64,000 nt of DNA from Aromatoleum aromaticum EbN1 (GTDB lineage Bacteria; Pseudomonadota; Gammaproteobacteria; Burkholderiales; Rhodocyclaceae): contig NC_006824.1 in assembly GCF_000025965.1 (NCBI RefSeq), positions 62,001-126,000 of the forward strand. The letters are read 5' to 3'. Shown here one piece after another: positions 3,197 through 33,323 of this stretch. The position numbers and the translations under genes were made by a program. The number at the start of each line of letters is the position of its first letter. The first letter of the stretch is position 1. Below the pieces are notes generated by a model. The model was not told where the DNA came from. It was given only the letters and a program-made list of their open reading frames with translations, and searched no databases.

Positions 3197-3383
3197 GGTG
3201 TCTCCTCCTTAGTAATGATTACCAACAACGTCGGAGTGAGGTCCTGGCCAAGGACTTATAATTTGTTTTCCTACAAGCAGTTCGGCTTCTTATGTTCAGA
3301 TTATCATTGCAGTTTCCCTGCAACAAGGACGCGCGGCTCGTCCGATCCAAGTAAACGTCCACCACTCGGACGCTCGATCCCTT
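3197..3383 (-). promoter_or_regulatory. Upstream region of TRAP transporter genes with possible regulator site
   Basis: This AT-rich gap holds a TCC-N7-GGA inverted repeat at 3242-3254, the same spacing as the sites before ubiX, iclR and idi but with a GC-rich centre. It also holds a TTGCAG-N5-CTGCAA inverted repeat at 3307-3323. No promoter was assigned with confidence. Confidence 0.3.
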
Positions 3384-6755: not shown

Positions 6756-6782
6756 CGCGGACTCCTTCGGTGGCAGCAGCGG

Positions 6783-8366
6783 TCAGCGTCCCGTGCGTGC
6801 CAGGGACAGCACCCAGCCTTCCATGCGCGAGCGCATCTTCTTGATGTCGCCCTCGCCGAAGAAGGCTTCCGGCTTGACCAGATCGACGCCGTACACCGGG
6901 CGGTGGAAGTCGCTCTCGTAGCCGAACGGCACGGTCGCGTCGATCCCCATGCCGCCTTCGAACTGGGTGTTCGAGGCGGTCCATTGCTTGTCGCCCGAGG
7001 TCATCCGTTCGGCCGGCATGAAGGTCTGGCCGCGCCCGCCAGGAATCGGGTTGAGGATGTCGGTGCGCGGATTCACGCGAGTGGTCAGACACCACATGAT
7101 GTCGTCCATCGAGTAGATGTCGACGTCTTCGCTCACCGCGATCGCCAGGCGCATCCCTTGCGAGCACGACAGGATCGCGGAGAGGAAATTGCGCTGCCAG
7201 CCTTCCTCGATCTGGTTGCGCTTCTTGACCTGAATGATGCAGCCGCCCCAGTCGGTCATGCAGTACGGGATATGCACGTTCTGCACGATGCCCGGCTGCA
7301 GCCGCTCGCACAGCGCGAAGATCGCCGACTCGCGCACCGAGGTGTCGATGTTGGCGTCGTCGGCCGTGTGCACGCCGAGCGGGAAGATGATCGGCTTGCT
7401 CTCGCGCCGGCGCATCGTGATCGCGGTGACGTGGAACGTCGGCGCCTTGTACGCTTTGCCCATGTAGCCCGCCCACTCCGGGTGGAAGTGAAAGCGCCCC
7501 TGGACGTCGGCCGCTTCCGACTCGGCCGTCTCGTAGCGCTTGTCGCGCGGGTGCAGATAGCCTTCGAGTACGTACTCGGCGTCGGCGAGCGTGTAGGCGT
7601 CGATCGTGCGGCACTTGACGAGGCGCACCGGCGAGCCCTGGATCGCGCCGGCGATGCCGATCTCGTCGCAGCCCTTGGGCAGGATCGCGTAGTCGAAGCC
7701 CGAGCCGGCAACGAAGGTGCACGACGGGGGCACGCCGAAGCACATCGTCAGCGGGATCGGCTCGTCGTCCTTGTAGTGCTCGGTCATCACCTGCCACATG
7801 TGTGATCCGGGCGAGATCTGGAACGTGCCGACGTTGCCCCAGCGGAAGTTCATGCGGTTGTAGCCGATGTGGCTGCCGCCGTCGAAGTACGGGCCGACGA
7901 CGCACGAGATGCCTGAGCCGATCGTCAGCTCGGTCTCAAGCGGCGTGTGGCGGATCGCGGTCAGCCACTTGTTGACGTCGAGGTCATCGGTGATGACCTC
8001 TTCCTGCACCGGCGCCTCGTCCTGGCCGATGATGATCGGCGCGAGCGGATGGTCGATCGCACGCGCGACCTTCTTGACCCGGTCGAGCGAGTTCTCCCAG
8101 CCGAAGAGGCCTTCGACGACACGGATGTCGCCAAAGAGGTTCGTGATCGCGCGGGCATGGGGCATGCCTTTGACGTTGTTGAAGAGCATCGGCAGGCTGC
8201 CGTCGAAGATCTTCTGCAGACCGGTGATCTCGAGGTCAGGATTGACTTCCTTGTCGGTCTCGACCAGGTAGCCCTGGGTGCGGAACCACTCGAGCGCTTC
8301 ACGCAGGTCCTTGACCCCGGCCCGCAGGGCCACCGCATCGATTTCTTTCGTTGCCAGATCGTTCAT
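6783..8366 (-). CDS. pcd: Phthaloyl-CoA decarboxylase-like UbiD family enzyme
   Basis: A 527-residue UbiD-superfamily decarboxylase, probably converting phthaloyl-CoA to benzoyl-CoA with prenylated FMN, a metal and potassium. Seen: the conserved Arg region HIGYNRMNF (Arg171) aligned with the UbiD NxGxYR motif, and an acidic motif HPEWAGY (Glu297). Where classical UbiD proteins read EGPFGE, this reads QGRFHFHPE, so the first glutamate is a glutamine (Gln289) and two residues are inserted. The start MNDLATKEID at 8366 is chosen because the duplicate copy begins at the same place. It lies 49 bp downstream of ubiX and 27 bp upstream of the CoA-transferase genes. The copy at 16910-18493 differs at only about three residues. 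Confidence 0.8.
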   Translation of the reverse strand: MNDLATKEIDAVALRAGVKDLREALEWFRTQGYLVETDKEVNPDLEITGLQKIFDGSLPMLFNNVKGMPHARAITNLFGDIRVVEGLFGWENSLDRVKKVARAIDHPLAPIIIGQDEAPVQEEVITDDLDVNKWLTAIRHTPLETELTIGSGISCVVGPYFDGGSHIGYNRMNFRWGNVGTFQISPGSHMWQVMTEHYKDDEPIPLTMCFGVPPSCTFVAGSGFDYAILPKGCDEIGIAGAIQGSPVRLVKCRTIDAYTLADAEYVLEGYLHPRDKRYETAESEAADVQGRFHFHPEWAGYMGKAYKAPTFHVTAITMRRRESKPIIFPLGVHTADDANIDTSVRESAIFALCERLQPGIVQNVHIPYCMTDWGGCIIQVKKRNQIEEGWQRNFLSAILSCSQGMRLAIAVSEDVDIYSMDDIMWCLTTRVNPRTDILNPIPGGRGQTFMPAERMTSGDKQWTASNTQFEGGMGIDATVPFGYESDFHRPVYGVDLVKPEAFFGEGDIKKMRSRMEGWVLSLARTGR

Positions 8367-8415
8367 CGTGTTGCCTCCAGGTTGCTTTACTCGGGAATTT
8401 CTGGGGTATGTGCGA

Positions 8416-9015
8416 TTACTTCTGCGGCTGGAGATTGGCAACCTTGCGGTTGCGCATCTCCCCCTCCCAGCGCCGCGCGAACTCGGCCGGCAGGCCGAAT
8501 TGATCGAGAATCCGGGCAACGACGTGATCCACGATGTCGTCGACCGTCTGCGGGTGGTTATAGAACGCGGGCATCGGCGGCATGATCGTCACGCCCATCT
8601 TCGAGAGCTTGAGCATGTTCTCGAGATGGATGTCCGAGAGCGGCATCTCGCGCGTCACGAGCACCAGGCGACGCCGCTCCTTGAGGATCACGTCGGCCGC
8701 CCGATGCACCAGGTGGTCGCCCGTGCCGTGGGCGATCGCCGCGAGGCTCCTCATCGAGCACGGCGCGATCACCATCCCTTCGGTCACGAACGAGCCCGAC
8801 GAGATCGACGCGCCCATGTTGCCTTCGACGTGATCGACCGCGGCGAGCGCCCGCACCTGCTTGGCCGTGTAGGACGTCTCGTGCTCGATCGTCTGGATCG
8901 CCCACTTGCTCAGCACCAGGTGCGTCTCCACGTCGGTGCCCTGCAGCGCCTCGAGCAACCGAACCCCGAACACCACCCCCGTCGCCCCAGTGATCCCCAC
9001 TATCAGTCTTTTCAT
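8416..9015 (-). CDS. ubiX: UbiX-like flavin prenyltransferase
   Basis: A 199-residue protein that should attach a dimethylallyl group to reduced FMN, giving the prenylated FMN used by UbiD-type enzymes. Seen: the N-terminal flavoprotein motif LIVGITGATG, the APCSMRSLAAIAHG loop, and the C-terminal LKERRRLVLVTREMPL and HLENM segments typical of UbiX. The ATG at 9015 is preferred because GAGGGG lies just upstream; a longer TTG start at 9030 is possible. It is the first gene of the minus-strand phthalate unit, 49 bp before pcd. Two regulator-like TCC-N7-GGA motifs lie upstream. A copy at 18541-19140 differs at two residues (Ser/Pro and Val/Met). Confidence 0.9.
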   Translation of the reverse strand: MKRLIVGITGATGVVFGVRLLEALQGTDVETHLVLSKWAIQTIEHETSYTAKQVRALAAVDHVEGNMGASISSGSFVTEGMVIAPCSMRSLAAIAHGTGDHLVHRAADVILKERRRLVLVTREMPLSDIHLENMLKLSKMGVTIMPPMPAFYNHPQTVDDIVDHVVARILDQFGLPAEFARRWEGEMRNRKVANLQPQK

Positions 9016-9063
9016 ATGCCCCTCGCTCAAGGAATCAGTACAACTCCAGATGACTGCTGATAG

Positions 9064-9076
9064 TCCGTTATATGGA
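9064..9076 (-). promoter_or_regulatory. Probable IclR-type operator upstream of ubiX copy 1
   Basis: TCCGTTATATGGA, an inverted repeat of the TCC-N7-GGA type, about 50 bp before the ubiX start. Five similar sites lie at 9184, 19189, 19307, 20389 and 20498. The likely binder is the IclR protein encoded at 19579-20367; this is inference from position and symmetry. Confidence 0.55.
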
Positions 9077-9183
9077 CATTTATGCTAGAGATTTCGCCCC
9101 TCAAATAACGTTGCTGCGCCTCACTTGCTGATTACTCTAATTACCACTTGCAAGACAGGCAATCCATCTAGCCGAATTACTAT

Positions 9184-9196
9184 TTCAATATATGGA
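9184..9196 (-). promoter_or_regulatory. Second operator-like site upstream of ubiX copy 1
   Basis: TTCAATATATGGA, matching the TYC-N7-GGA motif, 120 bp upstream of the first site. The 9065-9350 gap has no supportable gene; it is AT-rich compared with its surroundings and fits a control region. Confidence 0.45.
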
Positions 9197-9350
9197 CTAT
9201 TGTTTTTGCTCGAATGCCACCTTGCAACCGATCAAAGAGCGAGTGAAGGCGAACCAGGAGTACCGGGGGGATACATGCGGGGGCTTGATCGAGCTTCGTG
9301 ACCCCGCCCTGATGGAACCAGCGATCAGCCCCGAAAATCGCGTTAGTCAG

Positions 9351-12090: not shown

Positions 12091-13605
12091 TCAGCCGAGC
12101 AGATAACCGAATTTCTCGCGCGCCTCGCGCAGGTCCTTTGGACTCAGTCGATTGACCAGGGGGAAGCGATCGCGCCAATGGAACGGCCGGCACGCATCGA
12201 TGATCGCGCGCGAGTTCGTGTAATTACCCTTTTCACGATCCTCGGGGGTGAGGCGCGGATCGAGTGGTGTGCTCCACGAGTTGGTGATGATGTCGATTGA
12301 CGTCGCCGGATCGGAGCGCGTCACCACTGCCCACATCACCTCCTCCAGGTTGGATGCGTCGACGTCGTCGTCGACGACCACTACGTACTTGCCCGCGTAC
12401 GCGCCCACGTGACACTGGCTGGCGATATGGCCGACCTGCTTGACGTGGCCGGGATAGCGCTGCTTGATCGCCACCGCAAGCAGCATGCGCGCACCCCCGC
12501 ACTCGTGTGCCCATGCGGCGGTAATGTCGGGCACGCCGGCCTTCTCGATTTCCTGCTTCAGCAACGCTGAACGCGTCACCGCACGGTAGCGCGCCATTTC
12601 GTCCGGCGGGCACAGCGGGGGGCAACCGAGGATGATCGGGTTGTTGCGATGGTAGATCGCCTTGATCTCGAGAACGGGCTCCTCGCGCACGTCGCTCGCG
12701 TAGTAGCCGGTCCACTCGCCGAACGGACCTTCCTTCTTGCGTCGTGTCGGATGCACGTAGCCCTCGATGACGAGTTCGGCGTTGGCCGGAATCGGGATGC
12801 CGGTGACCTTGCCGCGCACCATCTTCTGCGCCTTGCCACGCATCGCTCCAACCATGTCGAATTCGCACACGCCGTATGGCACTTCGCTGCACGCCATCAG
12901 GAACGTCAGCGGATCGCCGCCGACGACGATCGCTGTCGGCATCGGCTCGCCGCGCGCCTCGTACTTGTCGCGGTGGATACGACCATGCTTGCCCGGGGAA
13001 ATGTAGAAACCGACGGTCTTCTTGTCGTGGATCATGACCCGATAAGTGCCCGCGTTGAGCCATTTCTCGTCGGGATCCATCGTGATGTTGTAGCTGCCGG
13101 TTCCGATGTAGCGGCCCCCGTCATGCTCGTGCCACTGCGGTGTCGGAAACTTCGTAATGTCGATGTCGTCGCCCATCAGCACATTTTCGAAGATCGGACC
13201 ATACTCGACGATCTCGTGCGGGAGCGGCTCCATGTCGCGCAGGCTGTTCTCGAGGAAGGCCTGCGACAGCTCCAGCCGGGACAGATCCGTTGGAAAACCG
13301 AGGGTCATGTTCTTGCGGCTTCCGCCGAAGAAGTTGACGAGCACGCGGTGGCCCTTCTCGCACCCGGGCACGTCGTCGAAAATCACACAGGGCGCCGCAT
13401 CCGAATGCATCGCGAGGTCGGCCGCCATGCCGATCTCCTTTTGCCATGTCGCGCCCTGGATCACATGCACTTCACCCAGTTTCTCAGCTTCGACAATCCA
13501 CTCGCGCAGATCCTCGTAGGCAATCTGGCAACGCTGTTCGAGGTCCCGTCGCCCTACGCCTTCCTGGACGCCTCCGACCGCTCTGTTCAAAGCGTTATCA
13601 TTCAC
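12091..13605 (-). CDS. UbiD family decarboxylase (second type)
   Basis: A 504-residue prenylated-FMN-dependent (de)carboxylase. All three classical active-site elements are visible: Arg189 in NAGTYRVMIH, and Glu292 and Glu297 in KEGPFGEWTGYY. It is thus a standard UbiD fold, clearly distinct from the pcd-type genes on either side. The start is GTG at 13605 with AGGAGAAG 7 bases upstream. It is the fourth gene of the SBP-ATPase-permease-decarboxylase unit, 60 bp after the ABC permease, suggesting that the ABC system imports its aromatic acid. No dedicated ubiX lies in this unit, so it presumably uses prenylated FMN made by the two neighbouring UbiX copies. The substrate is unknown. Confidence 0.85.
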   Translation of the reverse strand: MNDNALNRAVGGVQEGVGRRDLEQRCQIAYEDLREWIVEAEKLGEVHVIQGATWQKEIGMAADLAMHSDAAPCVIFDDVPGCEKGHRVLVNFFGGSRKNMTLGFPTDLSRLELSQAFLENSLRDMEPLPHEIVEYGPIFENVLMGDDIDITKFPTPQWHEHDGGRYIGTGSYNITMDPDEKWLNAGTYRVMIHDKKTVGFYISPGKHGRIHRDKYEARGEPMPTAIVVGGDPLTFLMACSEVPYGVCEFDMVGAMRGKAQKMVRGKVTGIPIPANAELVIEGYVHPTRRKKEGPFGEWTGYYASDVREEPVLEIKAIYHRNNPIILGCPPLCPPDEMARYRAVTRSALLKQEIEKAGVPDITAAWAHECGGARMLLAVAIKQRYPGHVKQVGHIASQCHVGAYAGKYVVVVDDDVDASNLEEVMWAVVTRSDPATSIDIITNSWSTPLDPRLTPEDREKGNYTNSRAIIDACRPFHWRDRFPLVNRLSPKDLREAREKFGYLLG

Positions 13606-13665: not shown

Positions 13666-14475
13666 TTAGTGGGCCGTCTTCCATGGCACAAGCCAGCGTT
13701 CGAGCTCGGTAAGCGCGAGCGAGAACAGGAAACCGAGCAGCGCGATGACGATGAGGCCGACATACATCGTTTCCACCGACAGAATTTCCCACGCGTTCCA
13801 GATCATGTGCCCGAGGCCGCTGTTGGCGCCGACCATCTCGGCGATCGTGATCAGGATCAGGCCCAGGCCGACCCCGAGCTTGACGCCGGTCATGATCAGC
13901 GGCATCGCCCCCGGTAATGCGATCGTGCGGAACACCTGCCAGCGGCTCGCCTTGAAGTTGTGGCCGACATCCAGATAGATTTTGTTGATCTCCATGACAC
14001 CGGCCATCGAGTTGATCAGCACCGGATAGAACACTCCGGTCGCGACCATGACGATTTTCGACGCCTCGCCGAGGCCGAAGATCAGCAGGATCAACGGCAG
14101 GATCGCGCTCTTCGGGATTGGGTAGGTCGCCGCGACCAGCGGATCGAATACCGCGCGGATTGGCCGATACAGTCCCATGACAATGCCGAGCAGCAGCGCC
14201 GGGATGCCGCCGAGCAGCATCCCCCAGAACAGCCTCGTCAGGCTTGCCGCGGTATCAGTCCACAGGGACCCCGACACGACCAATGCCACGAGCTTCACGG
14301 CCACCTGCGACGGCGCGGGAAAAAAGCGCGCGTCGATTGCGCCGGACTGCACGCACAGCTCCCACAACACGATCAGCGCCAGCGGCGATACGATGCCGAT
14401 CAATCGGTCTCGATTCCTTGCCGATCGCACTTTCGTACGTGTCTCGGCAACGCGCGCCTTCTTTGCGATGCTCAT
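13666..14475 (-). CDS. ABC transporter permease, nitrate/taurine (SsuC/TauC) type
   Basis: A 269-residue inner-membrane subunit with about six hydrophobic helices. It has the permease (EAA) loop region near FKASRWQVFRTIALPGAMPLIMTGVKLG, which contacts the ATPase. It overlaps the ATPase gene by 4 bases (ATGA), showing translational coupling. The family carries sulfonates, nitrate, pyrimidine precursors and aromatic acids including phthalates; the neighbour UbiD gene favours an aromatic carboxylate here. Confidence 0.9.
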   Translation of the reverse strand: MSIAKKARVAETRTKVRSARNRDRLIGIVSPLALIVLWELCVQSGAIDARFFPAPSQVAVKLVALVVSGSLWTDTAASLTRLFWGMLLGGIPALLLGIVMGLYRPIRAVFDPLVAATYPIPKSAILPLILLIFGLGEASKIVMVATGVFYPVLINSMAGVMEINKIYLDVGHNFKASRWQVFRTIALPGAMPLIMTGVKLGVGLGLILITIAEMVGANSGLGHMIWNAWEILSVETMYVGLIVIALLGFLFSLALTELERWLVPWKTAH

Positions 14476-15329
14476 GACCTTACCCCCTCCTCATCCTGGG
14501 CACGGGCGCGGCGGACCTCGTCGCGCAGCTCGTCCCAGATGTTGTAGACGAGCGCGCCGTATTCGGGCCGGGCGCGAAGCTCGAGAACATGCCGGGGGCG
14601 TTCGAACGGCACGTTCACGACCATCTTCACCTTGCCCGGATGGGCGCTCATCACGAGAATGCGATCGCCAAGCGTGACTGCTTCATCAACGCTGTGCGTA
14701 ATGAACAGCACCGTCTTGCGCGTCTCGTCCCAGATGCGCAGCAGCTCCTCCTGCAGTAGGAGCTTGTTCTGCTCATCGAGCGCCGAAAACGGCTCGTCCA
14801 TCAGCAGAATTTCGGGATCGTTGGCGAATGCCCGTGCGATCGAGACGCGCTGACGCATGCCCCCCGACAGCTGGTGCGGAAACGCGTCGGCGAAACGCGA
14901 CAGCCCGATTCGCGAAAGGTAGTGACCGACCGTCTCCTTGATTTCGGTCTTCGGCCGACCGCGCATCACGAGTCCGTAGGCCGCGTTCTGCCACACCGTC
15001 ATCCACGGGAACAGTGAGTCGCCTTGGAACACCATCGAGTTCTCGGGTCGCCCGCTGCCGGAATGCGCAATCTCAACGCTGCCGCTCGACTCGCTCTCGA
15101 GCCCGCCGAGAATCCGCAGCAGCGTCGTCTTGCCGCAGCCGCTCGGGCCGACGATCATGAAGAAGCAGCCCTCGGGAATGTCGAGGGACACCGCGTCGAG
15201 AGCGGCGAAGCGCCCGCGACGCGTCTCGAAGCTCTTGCCGAGGTTGCGGATGCGGATTTTCGGTGGGGTCTGCGCACTCGCCACACAGGCCGCCTGCGCA
15301 AGGACGTCCTGGATCGAATCGTCGCTCAC
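14472..15329 (-). CDS. ABC transporter ATP-binding protein, nitrate/taurine type
   Basis: A 285-residue cytoplasmic ATPase that energises the adjacent permease. Seen: Walker A GPSGCGKTTLL, the ABC signature LSGGMRQRVSIARA, Walker B ILLMDEPFSALD and the switch histidine in LFITHSVDEA. It overlaps both neighbours by 4 bases, so the three subunits are made together. All residues needed for ATP hydrolysis are present. Confidence 0.93.
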   Translation of the reverse strand: MSDDSIQDVLAQAACVASAQTPPKIRIRNLGKSFETRRGRFAALDAVSLDIPEGCFFMIVGPSGCGKTTLLRILGGLESESSGSVEIAHSGSGRPENSMVFQGDSLFPWMTVWQNAAYGLVMRGRPKTEIKETVGHYLSRIGLSRFADAFPHQLSGGMRQRVSIARAFANDPEILLMDEPFSALDEQNKLLLQEELLRIWDETRKTVLFITHSVDEAVTLGDRILVMSAHPGKVKMVVNVPFERPRHVLELRARPEYGALVYNIWDELRDEVRRARAQDEEGVRS

Positions 15330-16372
15330 TGGAGGCTCCTTTTCGCTTCATACGTGCCGAGATCCTTGAGTGCTGCCTCGACAAACGTGTGGTCGACCGC
15401 CTGCTCCACAGTGACATTGCCCTGGATCAGCCCCTCGTCCTTGAAGAACTGCAGATCGTTGCGCAAGCTTGGCTCGTGGACCTTGCCGTTCGGATTGCAC
15501 CCGTTCGCGCTGAGGAGGCGGTAGGTCGCCGGATCCTTGAGCGCCGTACTCGCTGTCAGGATGGCAATGATGTCGTCGCTGCTCGGCCCGACGAGCCGTC
15601 CGTCCTTCAACGCATCGTTGTAGTCGCGCACGCCGCGCAGGTAAGCACGCATGAATTTGCGAGCCACTTCCGGCTTCTCGCGTGCGAACGGGCCGGAATA
15701 GAGCACGACCGCGAGCTGATGATCCGGATACGCCTCGTCGTCGCCGAGCACCTTCACGGCCGCGCCGCTCTGGATTGCCCGGGTTGCGGACGGCTCGGTC
15801 GTCAGTGCCGCGTCAACCGCCGCGTTCTGCAGCGCCATCACGTGCTGAGGAAAACCCATGTAGACGCGCTCCACGTCGGCCGTTTTCAGGTCCGCCTTCT
15901 TCAGCATCTCGTTGAGAGTGGATGTCGATGCGCTGCCGGGGGCGCTACCGGCGATCTTCATGCCCTTTAGATCCTTCAGCTCCTTGAATCGGCCGCTATC
16001 GACCAGATCCTTGCGCACCAGCAGCGGCTGATAGCCGTATCCCGGTGGCGTCGAGCCCTTGTCGGCAACTATCTTGATGCTGATGCCGCGAGCGATCGCG
16101 TTGTAGAGCCCCGCAGACGGCGAGCCGCCGCCGACGTCAAGGTGACCGGCGCCGAGTGGAGCAATCATCTTCGCCGCCGAGTCGAACGGAGTGAAGACGA
16201 TTTCCAGCCCCTCCTCGCGGAAATAACCTTTCTTGTCAGCGATGAGAAAACCGGCGTCGCTACTGGAATTGACAACACCGACGCGAACTTCGGTCGAGTC
16301 GTTGGCGGCGCAGTTGAGCGCCCACACCGCAAGACAGGTTGCCGATAAAAATCTTAAACATGCTGTTTTCAT
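15326..16372 (-). CDS. ABC transporter substrate-binding protein (NMT1/SsuA type)
   Basis: A 348-residue periplasmic binding protein and first gene of the ABC/decarboxylase unit. Signal peptide: MKTACLRFLSATCLAVWALN, with cleavage around NCAA. The mature start STEVRVGVVNSSSDAGFLIADKKGYF matches the SsuA/ThiY-like fold. The ATG at 16372 is chosen because AAAGGAGGAG lies about 8 bases upstream; an upstream in-frame ATG at 16459 would destroy the signal peptide. Ligand unknown, probably an aromatic acid. Confidence 0.88.
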   Translation of the reverse strand: MKTACLRFLSATCLAVWALNCAANDSTEVRVGVVNSSSDAGFLIADKKGYFREEGLEIVFTPFDSAAKMIAPLGAGHLDVGGGSPSAGLYNAIARGISIKIVADKGSTPPGYGYQPLLVRKDLVDSGRFKELKDLKGMKIAGSAPGSASTSTLNEMLKKADLKTADVERVYMGFPQHVMALQNAAVDAALTTEPSATRAIQSGAAVKVLGDDEAYPDHQLAVVLYSGPFAREKPEVARKFMRAYLRGVRDYNDALKDGRLVGPSSDDIIAILTASTALKDPATYRLLSANGCNPNGKVHEPSLRNDLQFFKDEGLIQGNVTVEQAVDHTFVEAALKDLGTYEAKRSLQ

Positions 16373-16807: not shown

Positions 16808-16882
16808 GAGATCGGCGAGCAACCGACCGGCGAGCCAGCCGGTGCGGTTGCTCAGATCCAGGACCCGGTATGCGTTAAGCAT
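16808..16882 (-). pseudogene. 5' remnant of the CoA-transferase gene
   Basis: The 75 bp encodes the first 25 residues (MLNAYRVLDLSNRTGWLAGR onward) of the protein at 5568-6755, then similarity ends abruptly at 16807. It marks the breakpoint of the duplication and is non-functional. Confidence 0.85.
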
Positions 16883-16909
16883 CGCGGACTCCTTCGGTGG
16901 CAGCAGCGG

Positions 16910-18493
16910 TCAGCGTCCCGTGCGTGCCAGGGACAGCACCCAGCCTTCCATGCGCGAGCGCATCTTCTTGATGTCGCCCTCGCCGAAGAAGGCTTCCGGC
17001 TTGACCAGATCGACGCCGTACACCGGGCGGTGGAAGTCGCTCTCGTAGCCGAACGGCACGGTCGCGTCGATCCCCATGCCGCCTTCGAACTGGGTGTTCG
17101 AGGCGGTCCATTGCTTGTCGCCCGAGGTCATCCGTTCGGCCGGCATGAAGGTCTGGCCGCGCCCGCCAGGAATCGGGTTGAGGATGTCGGTGCGCGGATT
17201 CACGCGAGTGGTCAGACACCACATGATGTCGTCCATCGAGTAGATGTCGACGTCTTCGCTCACCGCGATCGCCAGGCGCATCCCTTGCGAGCACGACAGG
17301 ATCGCGGAGAGGAAATTGCGCTGCCAGCCTTCCTCGATCTGGTTGCGCTTCTTGACCTGAATGATGCAGCCGCCCCAGTCGGTCATGCAGTACGGGATAT
17401 GCACGTTCTGCACGATGCCCGGCTGCAGCCGCTCGCACAGCGCGAAGATCGCCGACTCGCGCACCGAGGTGTCGATGTTGGCGTCGTCGGCCGTGTGCAC
17501 GCCGAGCGGGAAGATGATCGGCTTGCTCTCGCGCCGGCGCATCGTGATCGCGGTGACGTGGAACGTCGGCGCCTTGTAGGCCTTGCCCATGTAGCCCGCC
17601 CACTCCGGGTGGAAGTGAAAGCGCCCCTGGACGTCAGCCGCTTCCGACTCGGCCGTCTCGTAGCGCTTGTCGCGCGGGTGCAGATAGCCTTCGAGCACGT
17701 ACTCGGCGTCGGCGAGCGTGTAGGCGTCGATCGTGCGGCACTTGACGAGGCGCACCGGCGAGCCCTGGATCGCGCCGGCGATGCCGATCTCGTCGCAGCC
17801 CTTGGGCAGGATCGCGTAGTCGAAGCCCGAGCCGGCAACGAAGGTGCACGACGGGGGCACGCCGAAGCACATCGTCAGCGGGATCGGCTCGTCGTCCTTG
17901 TAGTGCTCGGTCATCACCTGCCACATGTGTGATCCGGGCGAGATCTGGAACGTGCCGACGTTGCCCCAGCGGAAGTTCATGCGGTTGTAGCCGATGTGGC
18001 TGCCACCGTCGAAGTACGGGCCGACGACGCACGAGATGCCCGAGCCGATCGTCAGCTCGGTCTCAAGCGGCGTGTGGCGGATCGCGGTCAGCCACTTGTT
18101 GACGTCGAGGTCATCGGTGATCACTTCTTCCTGCACCGGCGCCTCGTCCTGGCCGATGATGATCGGTGCGAGCGGATGGTCGATCGCATGCGCGACCTTC
18201 TTGACCCGGTCGAGCGAGTTCTCCCAGCCGAAGAGGCCTTCGACGACACGGATGTCGCCAAAGAGGTTCGTGATCGCGCGGGCATGGGGCATGCCTTTGA
18301 CGTTGTTGAAGAGCATCGGCAGGCTGCCGTCGAAGATCTTCTGCAGACCGGTGATTTCGAGGTCGGGATTGACTTCCTTGTCGGTCTCGACCAGGTAGCC
18401 CTGGGCGCGGAACCACTCGAGCGCTTCGCGCAGGTCCTTGACCCCGGCCCGCTGGGCCACCGCATCGATTTCTTTCGTTGCCAGATCGTTCAT
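16910..18493 (-). CDS. pcd: Phthaloyl-CoA decarboxylase-like UbiD family enzyme, second copy
   Basis: A 527-residue protein essentially identical to the product at 6783-8366; the visible changes are Leu14 to Gln, Thr30 to Ala and Arg102 to His, all outside the active site. It retains Arg171, Glu297 and the unusual Gln289 with the two-residue insertion. It lies 47 bp downstream of the second ubiX. Because its CoA-transferase partner is truncated, it must share the transferase encoded at 4351-6755, so the copy probably raises decarboxylase dosage. Confidence 0.82.
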   Translation of the reverse strand: MNDLATKEIDAVAQRAGVKDLREALEWFRAQGYLVETDKEVNPDLEITGLQKIFDGSLPMLFNNVKGMPHARAITNLFGDIRVVEGLFGWENSLDRVKKVAHAIDHPLAPIIIGQDEAPVQEEVITDDLDVNKWLTAIRHTPLETELTIGSGISCVVGPYFDGGSHIGYNRMNFRWGNVGTFQISPGSHMWQVMTEHYKDDEPIPLTMCFGVPPSCTFVAGSGFDYAILPKGCDEIGIAGAIQGSPVRLVKCRTIDAYTLADAEYVLEGYLHPRDKRYETAESEAADVQGRFHFHPEWAGYMGKAYKAPTFHVTAITMRRRESKPIIFPLGVHTADDANIDTSVRESAIFALCERLQPGIVQNVHIPYCMTDWGGCIIQVKKRNQIEEGWQRNFLSAILSCSQGMRLAIAVSEDVDIYSMDDIMWCLTTRVNPRTDILNPIPGGRGQTFMPAERMTSGDKQWTASNTQFEGGMGIDATVPFGYESDFHRPVYGVDLVKPEAFFGEGDIKKMRSRMEGWVLSLARTGR

Positions 18494-18540
18494 CGTATTG
18501 CCTCCAGGTTGCTTTACTCGGGAATCGGGGGTGTGTGCGA

Positions 18541-19140
18541 TTACTTCTGCGGCTGGAGATTGGCAACCTTGCGGTTGCGCATCTCCCCCTCCCAGCGCCG
18601 CGCGAACTCGGCCGGCAGGCCGAATTGATCGAGAATCCGGGCAACGACGTGATCCACGATGTCGTCGACCGTCTGCGGGTGGTTATAGAACGCGGGCATC
18701 GGCGGCATGATCGTCACGCCCATCTTCGAGAGCTTGAGCATGTTCTCGAGATGGATGTCCGAGAGCGGCATCTCGCGCGTCACGAGCACCAGGCGACGCC
18801 GCTCCTTGAGGATCACGTCGGCCGCCCGATGCACCAGATGGTCGCCCGTGCCGTGCGCGATCGCCGCAAGGCTCCTCATCGAGCACGGCGCGATCACCAT
18901 CCCTTCGGTCATGAACGAGCCCGACGAGATCGACGCCCCCATGTTGCCCTCGACGTGATCGACCGCGGCGAGCGCGCGCACCTGCTTGGCCGTGTAGGGC
19001 GTCTCGTGCTCGATCGTCTGGATCGCCCACTTGCTCAGCACCAGGTGCGTCTCCACGTCGGTGCCCTGCAGCGCCTCGAGCAGCCGAACCCCGAACACCA
19101 CCCCCGTCGCCCCCGTGATCCCCACTATCAGTCTCTTCAT
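18541..19140 (-). CDS. ubiX: UbiX-like flavin prenyltransferase, second copy
   Basis: A 199-residue protein with the same LIVGITGATG and APCSMRSLAAIAHG motifs as the copy at 8416-9015, differing at two residues. The ATG at 19140 is chosen for the same reason (GAGGGG just upstream). Its upstream region has its own TCC-N7-GGA sites at 19189 and 19307, so it appears independently expressed and under the same control. Together with idi at 20613 it would increase prenylated FMN supply. Confidence 0.9.
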   Translation of the reverse strand: MKRLIVGITGATGVVFGVRLLEALQGTDVETHLVLSKWAIQTIEHETPYTAKQVRALAAVDHVEGNMGASISSGSFMTEGMVIAPCSMRSLAAIAHGTGDHLVHRAADVILKERRRLVLVTREMPLSDIHLENMLKLSKMGVTIMPPMPAFYNHPQTVDDIVDHVVARILDQFGLPAEFARRWEGEMRNRKVANLQPQK

Positions 19141-19188
19141 ATGCCCCTCGCTCAAGGAATCAGTGCAACTCCAGATGACTGACGATAG

Positions 19189-19201
19189 TCCATAATACGG
19201 A
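19189..19201 (-). promoter_or_regulatory. Operator-like site upstream of ubiX copy 2
   Basis: TCCATAATACGGA, TCC-N7-GGA type, 49 bp before the start codon, at the same distance as the site before ubiX copy 1 although the bases around it differ between the copies. Conservation of the motif amid diverged flanks supports function. Confidence 0.55.
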
Positions 19202-19306
19202 CCTTTTTAACAACCTGGCTCTGCACTTAATTCGTGATAACTGCGGCCTTGGAGAAACTTTAGAGAGGAATACCGCAGCAGACAATCCATATTTCTGACA
19301 TTTTAT

Positions 19307-19319
19307 TCCATATTTTGGA
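19307..19319 (-). promoter_or_regulatory. Second operator-like site upstream of ubiX copy 2
   Basis: TCCATATTTTGGA, the most symmetric of the sites, 118 bp from the first one. A weaker TCCATATTTCTGA lies at 19286-19298. The paired arrangement mirrors that before ubiX copy 1 (120 bp spacing). Confidence 0.55.
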
Positions 19320-19370
19320 CTGCCGTTATCGGGCGCCTTGCAGGGGAAATGAGAGGCGGAGTTGAATTGC

Positions 19371-19578: not shown

Positions 19579-20367
19579 TCAAGGGCGGGCCGTGTCGCTT
19601 ACGGCGGCCTCGAGATTGATGATTTCGGCCCGAATCAGCGCAACTAGCTCCTTCTGGCGCTCGTCGGTCATCCGGCTGGAGATCGCGCCGACGCTGATCG
19701 CAAGGAAAGGCTCTCCCGAGCGGGAGCGGATCGGCAACCCGACCGAAGTGGCGCCGGGCGTTATACGGGCGTCGTTAAGCGCGTAACCCAGCTCCCTGCA
19801 CCGCTTCAGCAAGCGCATCAGCGCGGGGACCGTGAGGTTGTTGTACGCCCCCAATCTGAGAGCGTTGGCGGAAACGACGTCGTCAATGGCCTGATCCGGC
19901 AAGGACATCAGCAGCGCCAGGCCGCCCGCCCCCACACCCAGAGGGCGTCGAGTGCCGACATCGAGAGTGAGCGTGCGGATCGGAAAGGAACCTTCGGCGC
20001 GATCTATGCATACCGTATCAAACCCGCTTCGTATCGTGAGGAATACCGTGTCGCCGGTCTTTTCGGCGAGCCTTGCGAGGACCGGCCGACAAACATCGCG
20101 CAGATTGAAACTCGATGAGGCAGCAAGTCCAAGCTCGAAAACCAGATGCCCGAGAAAATAGCGGCGCGTCTGCGCATCCTGCTTGACCAGGCCTTCGGCG
20201 ATCAGGCATTTCAATATCCGGTGGGCAGTTGGCCGCTCAAGCCTCGAATGCGACGAGATGTCGACCAGACGCAATCCCGTGCCATTGCGGGAAGCGAGGA
20301 TCCGCAAGACGTGCGCGGCGCGCTGGATGCTTTGGGTCCCCGTGCCAGGGCTATTGCTGTCGCTCAT
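19579..20367 (-). CDS. IclR family transcriptional regulator
   Basis: A 262-residue regulator with an N-terminal winged helix-turn-helix (about residues 10-75: SIQRAAHVLRILAS..., RPTAHRILKCLIAEGLV) and a C-terminal ligand-binding domain (FPIRTLTLDVGTRRPLGVGA; GYALNDARITPGATSVGLPI). The ATG at 20367 has AAAGGGAG about 8 bases upstream and begins MSDSNSPGTGTQ; a longer in-frame start at 20490 is less likely because it would run through the putative promoter. It is divergent from idi and adjacent to the duplicated ubiX-pcd. The TCC-N7-GGA site at 20389 in its own leader suggests autoregulation. The likely effector is phthalate, phthaloyl-CoA or benzoyl-CoA; this is inference. Confidence 0.9.
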   Translation of the reverse strand: MSDSNSPGTGTQSIQRAAHVLRILASRNGTGLRLVDISSHSRLERPTAHRILKCLIAEGLVKQDAQTRRYFLGHLVFELGLAASSSFNLRDVCRPVLARLAEKTGDTVFLTIRSGFDTVCIDRAEGSFPIRTLTLDVGTRRPLGVGAGGLALLMSLPDQAIDDVVSANALRLGAYNNLTVPALMRLLKRCRELGYALNDARITPGATSVGLPIRSRSGEPFLAISVGAISSRMTDERQKELVALIRAEIINLEAAVSDTARP

Positions 20368-20388
20368 CGGGAAGCTCCCTTTCATAAT

Positions 20389-20401
20389 TCCACACTTTGG
20401 A
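20389..20401. promoter_or_regulatory. Operator-like site in the iclR leader
   Basis: TCCACACTTTGGA, TCC-N7-GGA type, 22 bp upstream of the iclR start codon, a position suited to autorepression. Confidence 0.5.
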
Positions 20402-20497
20402 ATTTTATCGGCCGCTTCCGCCTTGTCAACGCTCACTTCGAGACGTAGATTTATTGATATGCAGCGTTCTATTGCCAATATCACTGCCAAAAATCAG

Positions 20498-20510
20498 TTC
20501 ATATTCCGGA
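20498..20510. promoter_or_regulatory. Operator-like site upstream of idi
   Basis: TTCATATTCCGGA, fitting TYC-N7-GGA, about 100 bp before the idi start in the divergent iclR/idi region. Confidence 0.5.
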
Positions 20511-20612
20511 CTGTTGCATTAGGCACGGAGTCTGATGGTGGCGCCTCGAATTCCGGTGATGCCGGATTCCCGGCAGGCACTGCATTTCTCTATCCTGTCT
20601 GCGGGAGGCCCA

Positions 20613-21182
20613 ATGGAAGACCAAGTGATTCTGGTGGACGAGCATGACAATAAGGTCGGCTTCGCAGGCAAGATGGCGGCCCACCAACGCGGTGCGCTGC
20701 ACCGCGCCATCTCGATATTCGTGTTCGATTCCCATAGCCGGCTGATGCTGCAACGGCGCGCGGCAGGCAAATATCATTCGGGCGGGCTGTGGAGCAATAC
20801 CTGCTGCAGCCATCCCCGCCCGAACGAGGAGAGCGCCGATGCCGCGCGTCGTCGCTTGCGGGAGGAAATGGGCGTCGATTGCGAACTGAAGAAGGCGTTC
20901 AGCTTTGTATACCGGACAAAGTTCGGCAGCGGTCTCATCGAACACGAATTTGATCACGTGTTCTTCGGCAACCATGACGGTCGTCCGGTATTGAATCCGG
21001 ACGAGGCCGACGACTGGAAGTGGGTGGACTTGACGGAATTGACGGTCGACGTCCGCAAGCGCCCCGAAACGTACAGTTTCTGGCTGGCGGCCTGCCTCGA
21101 TCGTGTCATCAGCTGTCGGTCCTTGAACGGAGCCGGGGCGGCAGCACAGAAAATTGGATCAACAATCACTTTGATGGCATGA
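20613..21182 (+). CDS. idi: Isopentenyl-diphosphate delta-isomerase, type I
   Basis: A 189-residue Nudix-fold isomerase converting IPP to DMAPP. Seen: metal-binding histidines in AAHQRGALHRA (His24, His30), the catalytic cysteine motif NTCCSHPR (Cys65, His67), the Nudix-like ARRRLREEMG helix and the acidic pair in LIEHEFDHVFFG (Glu110, Glu112). The ATG at 20613 follows GGGAGG at the right distance. The gene is unusual in a catabolic cluster but makes sense beside two ubiX copies, because flavin prenyltransferase uses a dimethylallyl phosphate derived from DMAPP. It is divergent from the IclR gene and shares the operator motif with ubiX. Confidence 0.93.
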   Translation: MEDQVILVDEHDNKVGFAGKMAAHQRGALHRAISIFVFDSHSRLMLQRRAAGKYHSGGLWSNTCCSHPRPNEESADAARRRLREEMGVDCELKKAFSFVYRTKFGSGLIEHEFDHVFFGNHDGRPVLNPDEADDWKWVDLTELTVDVRKRPETYSFWLAACLDRVISCRSLNGAGAAAQKIGSTITLMA

Positions 21183-21240: not shown

Positions 21241-22786
21241 CAGCGTGTCGGACTTGAGCACCGCCGGCGCTGTATCCGGGGGCTTGATTTCACAATGTGA
21301 GAAACGGTCGGCATTTCAGGTTCCAATCAGCGGTTTCCTGTCCGAAATCGCAATGCCCCTGTCCTTTTTTCTCACTGCGGACGCAATACGGCCATGCGCT
21401 TCAAGTTCCACGCCAAGCACACCAGGGTCCACTCGGCGCGCACGTTGTCGAGCCCGCGCAGCAGGAACTGGCGAAATCCCATCACCGACTTGATGATGCC
21501 GAACACCGGTTCCACGGTCTGTTTCCGGAGCGCGTAGGCGGCGCGGCCGGCCCGGGTCTTGAGGGCGTGCTTCATCTGTTCGACGGGGCTGGCGGGCTGC
21601 TCGAGCGGGGCGGGCTCTTCGAAGCGGCGGCGCCAATCCGGATGGTGCTCGTCGCGCCCGACCGCGATCAGCGGTTCGATCCCGGCGGCCTGGCAGCGCT
21701 CGACGTTGCGCTCGCTGAAGAAACCGGTGTCGGCCAGCAGTTGGTCGGGCTGATTGAGCCCTTCGGGCAGGGCCGCGATGCGGGCCAGCATCGGCTCGAC
21801 CTGCTCCTTGTCGTTGCCCGCCTGGGTGAGGTGGGGCACCATCACCAGCATCGACTCCGTATCGACCAGCGCCTGCGCGTTGTAGCACTGCTCGAAGCCG
21901 CCGCCGGTCACTTTCATGATGCGCGAGTCTTCGTCGGTCAGATTGAGCTGGTCGTCCGCGCGCGGACCGGGGGCAGGCGGGGTCGGCGGCTTGCCGCCGG
22001 GCTTCTTGCCGGTGGCCGCCGCCTTGGCCTGACGCTTGGCCAGCTTGGCATCAAACTCGGCCTGTTCGCGCTCGAAGCGCTCCTTGGCGCGCGCTTCGAT
22101 CTTGGCCTTGGCGGCCGCGATGGCGGCCAGCCGGTCTTCTCGGCGCTGGATCTCCGCGGGCAGATCCACGCCCTCGGGCACGCAGCTCCGATCGGCCGCT
22201 TCGGCCAGCGCGAGCATCTCCTGCACTTCGGCCTTGAGCTGGGCCTCGATCTTCTCGGCGTGCCCATACGAGAGCGCGCTGTGTCGGCTGGCGTTGGCGT
22301 GGATCTTGGTACCGTCCAGGCTCACGGTGCCAAAGCGCGAGAGCTGGTTCTCGCGGGCGACTTGCAGCACCTGCACGAAGGCATCGGCGAACTGATCGCC
22401 GAAACGGCGGCGGAACGTCGCCAGCGTGTCGTGGTCCGGATGCTGGTCGCACGCGATGAAGCGGAAGGCCAGCGAGTCGTACGTGGCCCGCTCGATCTTG
22501 CGGCTCGAATGGGTTCCCGTCGCGTAGCCGTAGATCAGCAGCGACAGCAGCAGCGCCGGGTGGTAGGCATCGCTACCGCGGCCCGCGTAGGCGCGCTCCA
22601 ATGCCGACAGGTCCAGCCCTTCCACCACATCGACCACGTAGCGCGCCAAGTGCGATTCGGGCAGCCAGTCCTGCACCGACGGTGGTAGCAGGTAGTCCGT
22701 TTGGCGATCGATCGGGCGGAAGCGGCTCATGCTCTCGGGTTCCAGGGGCGACGCGTCATTTTACAGGGGATAGTCCGACACGCTGC
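21241..22786. mobile_element. IS1182 family insertion sequence (type A)
   Basis: A 1546-bp element with inverted ends CAGCGTGTCGGACT and AGTCCGACACGCTG, flanked by CTAG on both sides (21237-21240 and 22787-22790), the apparent 4-bp target duplication. It is related to, but clearly different from, the two identical IS1182 copies at 31586 and 52158. Confidence 0.88.
21372..22730 (-). CDS. IS1182 family transposase (type A)
   Basis: A 452-residue DDE transposase that begins MSRFRPIDRQTDYLLPPSVQ and has an N-terminal DUF772-like domain (ERAYAGRGSDAYHP...LLIYGYATG), a charged coiled-coil linker rich in Ala/Lys/Glu/Arg, and the C-terminal catalytic part ending in VFGIIKSVMGFRQFLLRGLD. All parts are intact, so the element may be active. 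Confidence 0.9.
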   Translation of the reverse strand: MSRFRPIDRQTDYLLPPSVQDWLPESHLARYVVDVVEGLDLSALERAYAGRGSDAYHPALLLSLLIYGYATGTHSSRKIERATYDSLAFRFIACDQHPDHDTLATFRRRFGDQFADAFVQVLQVARENQLSRFGTVSLDGTKIHANASRHSALSYGHAEKIEAQLKAEVQEMLALAEAADRSCVPEGVDLPAEIQRREDRLAAIAAAKAKIEARAKERFEREQAEFDAKLAKRQAKAAATGKKPGGKPPTPPAPGPRADDQLNLTDEDSRIMKVTGGGFEQCYNAQALVDTESMLVMVPHLTQAGNDKEQVEPMLARIAALPEGLNQPDQLLADTGFFSERNVERCQAAGIEPLIAVGRDEHHPDWRRRFEEPAPLEQPASPVEQMKHALKTRAGRAAYALRKQTVEPVFGIIKSVMGFRQFLLRGLDNVRAEWTLVCLAWNLKRMAVLRPQ

Positions 22787-31531: not shown

Positions 31532-31585
31532 ACCCGCTGCCGGTCGTGCCGTGGGAAGCTGCGAACAGGAATGGCGGCTGTCTAG

Positions 31586-33130
31586 CAGCCTGTCGGGCTT
31601 TCACAGAGATAGGCGATAATCCCAGCCAGACGAACTGACGGAATCGGCTGCGATGGCGTTCCACCCGATAGATCGAGACACAGACTTTCTGTTGCCGCCC
31701 TCGGTGCAGGACTGGCTGCCGGAAGCGCATCTGGCGCGGTACGTGGTGGACGTCGTCGAGCAGCTGGATTTGTCGGCGATGGAGCGGGCGTACGCCGGCC
31801 GTGGCAGCGACGCTTATCATCCGGCAACGCTGCTGGCGCTGCTGATCTACGGCTACGCCACCGGGACCTTCTCGAGCCGCAAGATCGAGCGCGCGACCTA
31901 CGACTCGCTGGCGTTCCGTTACATCGCCTGCAACCGGCATCCCGACCACGACACGCTGGCCAATTTCAGGAAGCGTTTCGGCGGGGAGTTCGAAGCGGCC
32001 TTTGTCCAGGTGCTGCAGGTAGCCCGCGAGAACCAGCTCTCACGCTTTGGCACGGTGAGTCTGGACGGGACCAAGATCCACGCCAATGCGAGCCGGCACA
32101 GTGCGCTCTCCTATGGCCACGCACGGACGATCGAGGCGCAGCTCAAGGTCGAGGTGCAGGAGCTCATGAAGCTGGCCGCGGCGGCCGATCAATCCTCGCT
32201 GCCGGACGGGGTGAAGCTGCCCGACGAGATTCGTCGTCGCGAGGACCGGCTAGCGGCGATCGCGGCGGCGAAGGCCAAGATCGAAGCGCGTGCCGCGGAG
32301 CGCTTCGAACGCGAACAGGCCGAGCACCAGGCCAAGCTCGCGAAGCGGCAGGCGCAGGAAGCCAAGACCGGCAAGAAGCCGGGGGGCAAGCCGCCGAAGC
32401 CGCCGCAAGCCGGTCCGCGCGCCGACGATCAGATCAACCTGACCGACGAAGAGTCCCGGATCATGCCGGTGTCGGGCGGCGGATTCGAGCAGAGCTACAA
32501 CGCGCAGGCGGTGGTCGATACTGAGTCGATGCTCATCCTCGCCACTCACGTGACCCAGGCGACCAACGACAAGGAACAGGTCGCGCCGATGCTCGCGAAA
32601 GTCCAGTCCAATCCCGAGGGGTTGAACCGGCCGGCGACCTGGCTCGCTGACACCGGTTACTACAGCGAAAAGAACGTCACGGCGTGCGTCGCCGCGAAGA
32701 TCGAACCGCTGATCGCGGTCAAGCGCGACGAGCACCATCCGGATTGGCGGGAGCGTTTCAGCGAACCTGAACCGTTGGCCGCAGGCGCCTCGGCGGTCGA
32801 GACGATGAAGCACAAGCTCAAGACCCGGGCCGGCCGCGCGGCCTATGCGCTGCGTAAGCAAACGGTCGAGCCGGTATTCGGCATCATCAAGTCGGTGATG
32901 GGCTTCCGCCAGTTTCTGCTGCGCGGCCTTGATAACGTGACAAACGAATGGACCCTCGTTTGCCTCGCGTGGAATTTGAAGCGCATGGCCGTATTGCGTC
33001 CGCAGTAAGCAAACGGACGGGGAATCGTGCGCGTTCTCGCAGAAATCACGATGAAAACGGCCTTCAGGCCCGATTCGCGTTCCGCATCGCGAACACTACC
33101 CCACCCAGGGTGGCGTAGTCCGACAGGCTG
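31586..33130. mobile_element. IS1182 family insertion sequence (type B), copy 1
   Basis: A 1545-bp element with ends CAGCCTGTCGGGCT and AGTCCGACAGGCTG, flanked by CTAG on both sides (31582-31585, 33131-33134). A copy in opposite orientation with an identical transposase lies at 52158-53702. Confidence 0.9.
31653..33008 (+). CDS. IS1182 family transposase (type B)
   Basis: A 451-residue transposase, MAFHPIDRDTDFLLPPSVQ..., with the same three-part structure as the protein at 21372 (N-terminal domain, Ala/Lys/Glu/Arg coiled coil, catalytic C-terminus VFGIIKSVMGFRQFLLRGLD). Its amino acid sequence is identical to that at 52280-53635, showing recent transposition. Confidence 0.92.
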   Translation: MAFHPIDRDTDFLLPPSVQDWLPEAHLARYVVDVVEQLDLSAMERAYAGRGSDAYHPATLLALLIYGYATGTFSSRKIERATYDSLAFRYIACNRHPDHDTLANFRKRFGGEFEAAFVQVLQVARENQLSRFGTVSLDGTKIHANASRHSALSYGHARTIEAQLKVEVQELMKLAAAADQSSLPDGVKLPDEIRRREDRLAAIAAAKAKIEARAAERFEREQAEHQAKLAKRQAQEAKTGKKPGGKPPKPPQAGPRADDQINLTDEESRIMPVSGGGFEQSYNAQAVVDTESMLILATHVTQATNDKEQVAPMLAKVQSNPEGLNRPATWLADTGYYSEKNVTACVAAKIEPLIAVKRDEHHPDWRERFSEPEPLAAGASAVETMKHKLKTRAGRAAYALRKQTVEPVFGIIKSVMGFRQFLLRGLDNVTNEWTLVCLAWNLKRMAVLRPQ

Positions 33131-33323
33131 CTAGTAATGGTGACTGAGTGCTTCCGACCCTTATGGAAAGCTTTCCATAAGGGTCGTTGGACTAAACCGC
33201 TGGCGCGGTAGGGGGTGATCCACGCGCGGTGCCGAAGCCGGCACATTCCCACAAAGCCCGCGTTGGAGAAGGATGGGGTGGCTGTTCGCAGCCCTTCGTT
33301 CCTTCCCAATCAGGAGCTTTGCC

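Follow-up and report, generated by a model that had tools for sequence, protein, structure and literature searches.

A type I isopentenyl-diphosphate isomerase gene as a probable private source of DMAPP for prenylated FMN in an anaerobic phthalate cluster

Here we report that the idi gene in a phthalate gene cluster of Aromatoleum aromaticum EbN1 is very probably a dedicated DMAPP-supply gene for prenylated FMN (prFMN), which is controlled together with ubiX and pcd, most likely by the adjacent IclR-type regulator via paired palindromes. A dedicated supply under joint control had been proposed in an earlier note, made from the letters of this DNA. Comparison across genomes supports it, because idi co-occurs with pcd, lies next to ubiX, is preceded by conserved paired sites and has a counterpart in a second idi-ubiX pair. 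In the proposed mechanism Idi would convert IPP to DMAPP, the prenyl donor; UbiX would join DMAPP to FMN to give prFMN, and prFMN would activate phthaloyl-CoA decarboxylase. The iclR-idi region and the DNA in front of ubiX-pcd(-sptAB) contain paired palindromes with an approximate consensus KTCCA-N5-TGGAM and a spacing of mostly 107-122 bp, and the IclR regulator would most likely bind there. On phthalate, the supply of precursor would then increase in step with prenyltransferase and decarboxylase. We infer from the sequence that IclR binds these sites, what induces the system, in which direction the control acts and how metabolism benefits.

The window, i.e. the whole stretch of 64,000 nucleotides that was analysed (C3:62001-126000), lies on a contig of 223,670 bp, which we take to be plasmid 2 of strain EbN1. 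The genome comprises 4,727,255 bp in three contigs, of which C1 has 4,296,230 bp. The window holds the gene set of an anaerobic phthalate cluster, with a UbiD-type decarboxylase gene, ubiX and two genes of family III CoA transferases, for which we assume the spt names. It is one of the anaerobic phthalate clusters of Aromatoleum, Azoarcus and Thauera (sptA, sptB, pcd, ubiX). In the part of PMC13040137 consulted, EbN1 is listed among the phthalate degraders, and pcd- and ubiX-type genes are ascribed to all known phthalate clusters. The name pcd follows from the cluster context and this pathway literature (PMC13040137), and its product is taken as the phthaloyl-CoA decarboxylase. The genes on the minus strand run in the order DctM-type TRAP transporter and binding protein, sptB-like, sptA-like, pcd copy 1, ubiX copy 1, EamA-type transporter, porin, a third UbiD gene with ABC-transporter genes, pcd copy 2, ubiX copy 2 and iclR. 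The main genes are:

4351-5571, minus strand: CoA-transferase family III gene, sptB-like (PF02515)
5568-6755, minus strand: CoA-transferase family III gene, sptA-like, downstream of pcd copy 1 (PF02515)
6783-8366, minus strand: pcd copy 1 (UbiD-family models; within the duplication)
8416-9015, minus strand: ubiX copy 1 (TIGR00421, 253.8 bits; start set by analogy with copy 2)
12091-13605, minus strand: third UbiD-family gene (PF01977), with ABC-transporter genes (PF00528, PF00005)
16910-18493, minus strand: pcd copy 2, UbiD-family gene of the putative phthaloyl-CoA decarboxylase (PF01977, PF20695, PF20696)
18541-19140, minus strand: ubiX copy 2, flavin prenyltransferase gene (TIGR00421, 253.3 bits, cut-off 108.9; ATG at 19140)
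19579-20367, minus strand: IclR-family regulator gene, divergent from idi (IclR_C, PF01614; HTH_IclR, PF09339; start taken as ATG 20367, which is preceded by a GGGAG-like sequence)
20613-21182, plus strand: idi, gene of a type I (Nudix-fold) isopentenyl-diphosphate Delta-isomerase by family and residues, 189 aa (NF002995, TIGR02150)

The pcd-ubiX pair is present as a 2.4-kb duplication (6681-9081 and 16808-19206) with 98.4% identical DNA. In a relative, G675, it is likewise doubled (L136:5260-7838 and 13766-16345; 2.6 kb, 99.9%); that duplication is slightly longer, fresher and apparently a separate event. The gene dosage of the pair was apparently increased repeatedly, in the window and in G675. 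The EbN1 genome as a whole contains four ubiX and two idi genes.

The earlier note had recognized an isomerase gene adjoining an iclR gene, and both assignments hold. Idi exceeds the cut-offs of two NCBIfam models, NF002995 with 166.5 bits (cut-off 127) and TIGR02150 with 122.5 bits (cut-off 105.8). Its start is ATG 20613, which it has in common with the chromosomal paralogue (MEDQVILVD), and not 20535; the stop is at 21182. The window protein and the paralogue agree at 68%. The best structure matches of Idi are solved isomerases, and Idi shares both the family and nine catalytic or metal-binding residues with the known type I IPP isomerases (1I9A and 1NFS, which we take to be E. coli Idi, and others). 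These nine residues, presumably H25, H32, H69, C67, E87, Y104, E114, E116 and W161 in E. coli Idi, are all present in the alignment of the window protein and in 14 of 14 intact members of the isomerase clade described below; Cys65, Glu112, Tyr100 and Trp157 of Idi are kept in all 14 together with the metal ligands. By family and active site the product is a type I IPP isomerase, and from this we infer IPP/DMAPP isomerase activity. Pairwise comparisons of idi (Nei-Gojobori) gave dN/dS pairs of 0.023/0.237, 0.144/1.077, 0.083/0.695, 0.16/1.027, 0.206/1.375, 0.224/1.173 and 0.137/1.172, with 0.008/0.028 for the closest pair. The ratio is 0.10-0.19 in seven of the eight pairs and 0.29 in the closest one; these low values indicate that idi is under purifying selection.

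Type I idi matched in 12 of 395 genomes of the family and was over the cut-off in 11. The pcd gene (E <= 1e-60) was found in 12 of 395 family genomes, in 4 of the 68 genera sampled; the two counts are taken as covering the same 395 genomes, and the handles given agree. All 11 genomes with an idi over the cut-off contain pcd, and the only genome with pcd and no idi is G119. The sub-threshold idi belongs to G116, a genome without a Pcd match. Fisher's test of the association gives p = 1.5e-20 with kinship ignored, a value that overstates the association because the genomes are related. In the order, idi was present in 3 of 399 genomes, with EbN1 among them. The fact that idi is rare in the family and tied to pcd indicates that it is not a housekeeping gene. 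A search for a type II isomerase as a hidden back-up found none over the cut-off in 23 genomes, 21 of which had weak sub-threshold matches. In the plasmid collection neither a near search with the pcd-ubiX DNA nor a protein search using Pcd yielded a match; a protein search with Idi returned 129 records, all below 60% identity.

Within the genus, idi is present in all six genomes with pcd (EbN1 included) versus none of the 11 without it. This distribution is difficult to reconcile with a role in general isoprenoid balance, in which the isomerase would serve ubiquinone and membrane lipids during anaerobic growth on aromatics and not prFMN. It is true that the IPP isomerase reaction feeds every isoprenoid and that prFMN needs little carbon. 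However, the neighbours of idi are UbiX and UbiD enzymes, those of a phenylphosphate-carboxylase cluster included. Together, these results make a role in general isoprenoid balance very unlikely.

A dedicated DMAPP supply is also plausible on metabolic grounds. The MEP pathway yields IPP in excess over DMAPP, and most of the genomes sampled in the family and order are without a type I isomerase; an isomerase made together with UbiX would lift DMAPP. Phthaloyl-CoA is very unstable, and the consulted sections of PMC13040137 ascribe its capture to high decarboxylase levels. The demand for prFMN should therefore be high; in addition, the pcd-ubiX pair is doubled both in the window and in G675. Furthermore, isopentenyl monophosphate binds UbiX without reacting, as stated in an excerpt of PMC6541611; on this evidence the isopentenyl isomer cannot stand in for the dimethylallyl donor.

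The gene neighbourhoods of the relatives point in the same direction. In eight of the 12 genomes with pcd (EbN1, G648, G662, G697, G675, G100, G006 and G570), which represent three genera, idi lies about 1.5 kb or less from ubiX and 2.2 kb from pcd. In G006 and G570 it heads a same-strand array, idi-ubiX-pcd-sptA-sptB-ubiD; a homologue of the third UbiD gene of the window lies 3' of sptB on the same strand in both. The phthalate-type idi of G708 is located near a contig end and is flanked on its two sides by an IclR gene and by a strong pair of operator-like sites, respectively. The members of this pair are 121 bp apart, as in the spacing upstream of ubiX, and the contig ends before any ubiX is readable. 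G708 has a second idi, at a distance of 0.09 kb from a ubiX. In G745, idi and pcd share a contig but are separated by 66 kb, and idi adjoins an IclR gene of the window type and another UbiD gene. In G071 it occurs on a different contig from pcd with no ubiX or UbiD gene within about 9 kb, and it falls in the subclade of the chromosomal copy; at the pcd locus of this genome iclR and pcd are direct neighbours. In G119, which has pcd, ubiX and iclR, the latter two directly adjoin each other; idi is absent from this place and was not found anywhere in the 87%-complete assembly. Because G119 contains the cluster without idi, the gene is not strictly required. The chromosomal idi of EbN1 (L012:3817-4350) is 0.36 kb upstream of a ubiX.

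In view of the fact that idi keeps its place next to ubiX and pcd across three genera and two layouts, the purifying selection with conserved sites, the occurrence on multi-megabase contigs (3.7 Mb in G675, 4.4 Mb in G100) and the second idi-ubiX pair elsewhere in the EbN1 genome, it is highly improbable that idi is an unrelated passenger on a transposon-rich plasmid island, even though the contig of 223,670 bp is taken to be a plasmid, idi is followed by a transposase gene at a distance of about 190 bp and several IS copies occur in the window.

The earlier note had named dimethylallyl phosphate (DMAP) as the donor used by UbiX. This is only part of the picture: O157 UbiX accepts DMAP but takes DMAPP as well, with a higher yield from DMAPP (PMC6541611). 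The closest solved structure to the window UbiX is 1SBZ, which is this O157 UbiX, and the window enzyme shares its His at the position treated in PMC6541611. Since O157 UbiX accepts DMAPP and the window UbiX shares its His, the window enzyme may use DMAPP directly, with no monophosphate step. The same paper (PMC6541611) states that this residue is not the sole determinant of the donor. As a separate candidate, His or Gln versus Phe at this position was considered as a marker of linkage to idi and rejected; the unlinked ubiX copy of EbN1 also encodes Gln.

The donor question also bears on a further alternative, namely that the Nudix-fold protein is a phosphohydrolase that converts DMAPP to DMAP and so feeds a UbiX specific for DMAP. 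In vitro, this conversion is carried out by E. coli NudJ (PMC12359138), and the window protein retains the EExG segment of the Nudix box. However, EExG is also found in isomerases outside the clade, in seven of the 13 readable rows (of 31); in this tally 13 of 121 rows were readable and none of the 14 clade members was among them. The general NUDIX domain PF00293 matches Idi, as is expected of isomerase and hydrolase alike. The hydrolase equivalogs gave scores far below their cut-offs (NF041653, 43.3 of 300; NF011922, 34.4 of 152), and the isomerase models were the best. The isomerase cut-offs are exceeded, the isomerase residues are intact in all 14 members and the His of the DMAPP-accepting enzyme is also present in the window UbiX. 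A phosphohydrolase is thus a most improbable identity for this protein.

Next to the isomerase itself, the candidate control sites argue for joint regulation of idi and ubiX. The window contains an exact copy of the pattern TTCCANNNNNTGGAA at a single place, 20388-20402. When two mismatches or fewer are allowed, 24 matches are found versus 15.4 +/- 3.9 expected, and shuffled sequences gave this many twice in 100 trials; the pattern by itself is barely above chance and therefore weak evidence. The exact pattern KTCCANNNNNTGGAM was found at 13 places genome-wide, fewer than its backwards control (32), and was dropped because the pattern alone is not informative at this scale. A symmetric 23-bp matrix was built from 28 sites at the loci of 10 relatives. 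These sites, none of which belongs to the window, were hand-picked from the hits of a pattern that itself derives from the window; pattern hits judged weak and one of two identical G675 copies were omitted. The earlier note had claimed an operator-like motif common to idi and both ubiX copies, and the relatives' matrix bears this out: its seven best matches in the 64-kb window are all in the control regions of iclR-idi, ubiX copy 2 and ubiX copy 1. They score 15.4-27.4, and the next match scores 11.9. Four further 20-kb stretches of the genome gave top scores of 14.0, 13.1, 8.3 and 5.0. Because such outside matches reach 14.0, six of the sites (>= 18.9) are clear and the one at 19285 (15.4) is marginal. 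The sites and the predicted promoters are:

9063-9077, unstranded: operator-like site upstream of ubiX copy 1; score 21.5
9183-9197, unstranded: operator-like site upstream of ubiX copy 1, 120 bp from 9063; score 22.8
19188-19202, unstranded: operator-like site upstream of ubiX copy 2; score 24.1
19285-19299, unstranded: marginal third site upstream of ubiX copy 2; score 15.4
19306-19320, unstranded: operator-like site upstream of ubiX copy 2, 118 bp from 19188; score 24.6
20388-20402, unstranded: operator-like palindrome TTCCACACTTTGGAA, the iclR-proximal member of the iclR-idi pair; score 27.4, best in the window
20402-20429, minus strand: predicted sigma70-like promoter of iclR, TTGACA-16-TAAAAT; 11 of 12 in the consensus scan
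20423-20451, plus strand: weak promoter-like site facing idi, TTGTCA-17-TAGATT; 9 of 12 in the consensus scan
20497-20511, unstranded: operator-like site GTTCATATTCCGGAC, the idi-proximal member, 109 bp from the first; score 18.9, sixth best

The proximal site of idi itself, at 20497, was absent from the earlier note. The two promoter-like sites in the iclR-idi region compare with 0.9 expected. The fact that the site at 20388-20402 touches the -10 element of a good sigma70-like iclR promoter suggests autoregulation of iclR. The earlier note had also assumed co-regulation of idi with three UbiD decarboxylases. Comparison supports this for the two pcd copies, which follow the motif via ubiX, but not for the third UbiD gene (12091-13605) and its ABC genes, as the matrix scan of the window gave no operator-like site upstream of 13605.

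The paired arrangement is conserved among the relatives, whose sites were scored with each genome left out of the matrix in turn. All ten phthalate-type idi genes have two sites upstream, and in nine of them both score at least 13. The spacing in bp and, in brackets, the lower score of the pair are 109 (20.2) in the window, 109 (20.2) in G648, 108 (23.7) in G662, 107 (13.4) in G675, 96 (15.9) in G697, 108 (13.6) in G708, 107 (6.9) in G100, 108 (14.3) in G745, 121 (21.8) in G006 and 122 (16.8) in G570. With a second score of 6.9, the idi of G100 has one good site only. The better idi site and the ubiX sites exceed the rest of the locus in the window, G648, G662, G100, G006 and G570. G675 has one strong site elsewhere (21.5; L136:2787-2801), 169 bp upstream of a transporter binding-protein gene; its window counterpart at 3357-3371 is weak (8.4). 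G708 has four strong sites (18.1-24.6; L147:4395-4993) that are remote from idi and outscore the idi pair. Sites also lie upstream of a further UbiD gene in G071 (27.6 and 26.1; L139:7730-7890) and G570 (22.7 and 16.8, shared with idi), and weaker ones in G006 (15.1) and G119 (12.8). The UbiD gene concerned in G071 and G570 is more distant than the homologue of the third UbiD gene. The motif is thus not exclusive to idi and ubiX, since some relatives have strong sites elsewhere, and the regulon in relatives is probably larger than these two genes because sites precede further genes, including UbiD genes.

The matrix scan found the plasmid motif absent from the chromosomal idi-ubiX pair of EbN1. 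As a separate observation, a second palindrome, TCTCRCATTATGAGA, lies upstream of both the ubiX of this pair (L012:4629) and a distant chromosomal UbiD gene (L011:4001), and a near-identical copy lies between idi and ubiX in G708 (L146:9196). These sites may mark a further regulon that includes an idi-ubiX pair of its own.

We then analyzed the phylogenetic relationship of the isomerases. The maximum-likelihood tree contains 87 proteins: those of 14 loci of the relatives and EbN1, the decayed copy of G116, two of the order, 41 of 76 other loci and 29 loci of the phylum survey. The 14 idi genes and the G116 copy form one clade with a support of 100/96. Window Idi is thereby separate from other type I isomerases, in a clade that is mostly tied to UbiX/UbiD clusters. 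The earlier note had proposed a survey of idi beside ubiX or ubiD. In this clade ubiX is within 3.5 kb of idi in 12 of 15 members, the exceptions being G745, the contig-end idi of G708 and G071, versus none within 100 kb on the same contig in 44 other proteobacterial genomes with an idi over the cut-off. These 44 are 42 of 398 surveyed genomes (EbN1 not counted) plus G178 and G255, and distances are defined for same-contig pairs. Thirty of the 44 have a ubiX over the cut-off, with a nearest same-contig distance, by eye, of about 117 kb. No UbiX or UbiD was present in the examined flanks of the 76 other idi loci, some of which are short.

Members of the clade occur in more than one kind of pathway. 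At locus L018 of a Janthinobacterium MAG, a phenylphosphate carboxylase beta model scores 564.9 (cut-off 468.95), and the neighbours are PEP-synthase-like subunits, UbiX, an acyl-CoA ligase and idi; this looks like a phenol-carboxylation cluster. G116 has a similar phenol-carboxylation-like gene set with a decayed idi. In that copy (L102:8918-9442) the stretch with two metal-ligand His residues is missing and there is an internal stop. So, judged by their neighbours, isomerases of this clade have become part of at least two named pathway types and of a further chromosomal UbiD cluster. We give an even chance to the broader idea that UbiX and this specialised clade form a portable prFMN-supply module in at least three UbiD clusters (phthalate decarboxylation, phenylphosphate carboxylation and one chromosomal), with DMAPP supply, and not UbiX, capping the amount of active UbiD enzyme.

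The description of known phthalate clusters in the consulted part of PMC13040137 includes neither idi nor an IclR regulon, and IclR is not mentioned in that text. Full-text searches of an open-licence collection listed no paper that reports idi in phthalate or UbiD clusters in its title or the first lines of its abstract; an earlier mention elsewhere is possible. LpdD and PhdC are, like idi, products or genes that help UbiD enzymes to obtain active cofactor; as far as the excerpts of the sources go, these two act on binding or maturation of prFMN, whereas idi would act on precursor supply. It can be difficult to produce UbiD enzymes in active form in a foreign host (PMC10865409), and a published prFMN protocol adds prenol and riboflavin to the culture (excerpt of PMC10807440). 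If the proposed role of idi is true, a private isomerase explains the cofactor supply for a decarboxylase needed in large amounts, idi is a one-gene addition to try in biotechnology, and an idi next to ubiX marks heavy prFMN use in clusters without assigned function. The gene also turns the question of whether prFMN is limiting in vivo into a clean gene-deletion experiment.

A further neighbourhood, one among the 129 Idi records of the plasmid collection, is on plasmid pD of Ensifer adhaerens (L181:10363-13375). By annotation it combines a P450, idi and an isopentenyl transferase; an isomerase gene here likewise lies beside a likely DMAPP user, which makes it another possible pathway-private isomerase. 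Its product would, from the annotation, be a prenylated small molecule, whereas that of the window system is a flavin cofactor.

The window contains a transposase element in identical inverted copies at 31580-33134 and 52154-53708, and a 79% relative of this element at 21356-22721, just downstream of idi. Two very large genes, at 47732-54551 and 55623-60524, appear NTPase-like by eye and are possible defence genes on the same basis. The first of these is seemingly broken by the transposase element at 52280-53635.
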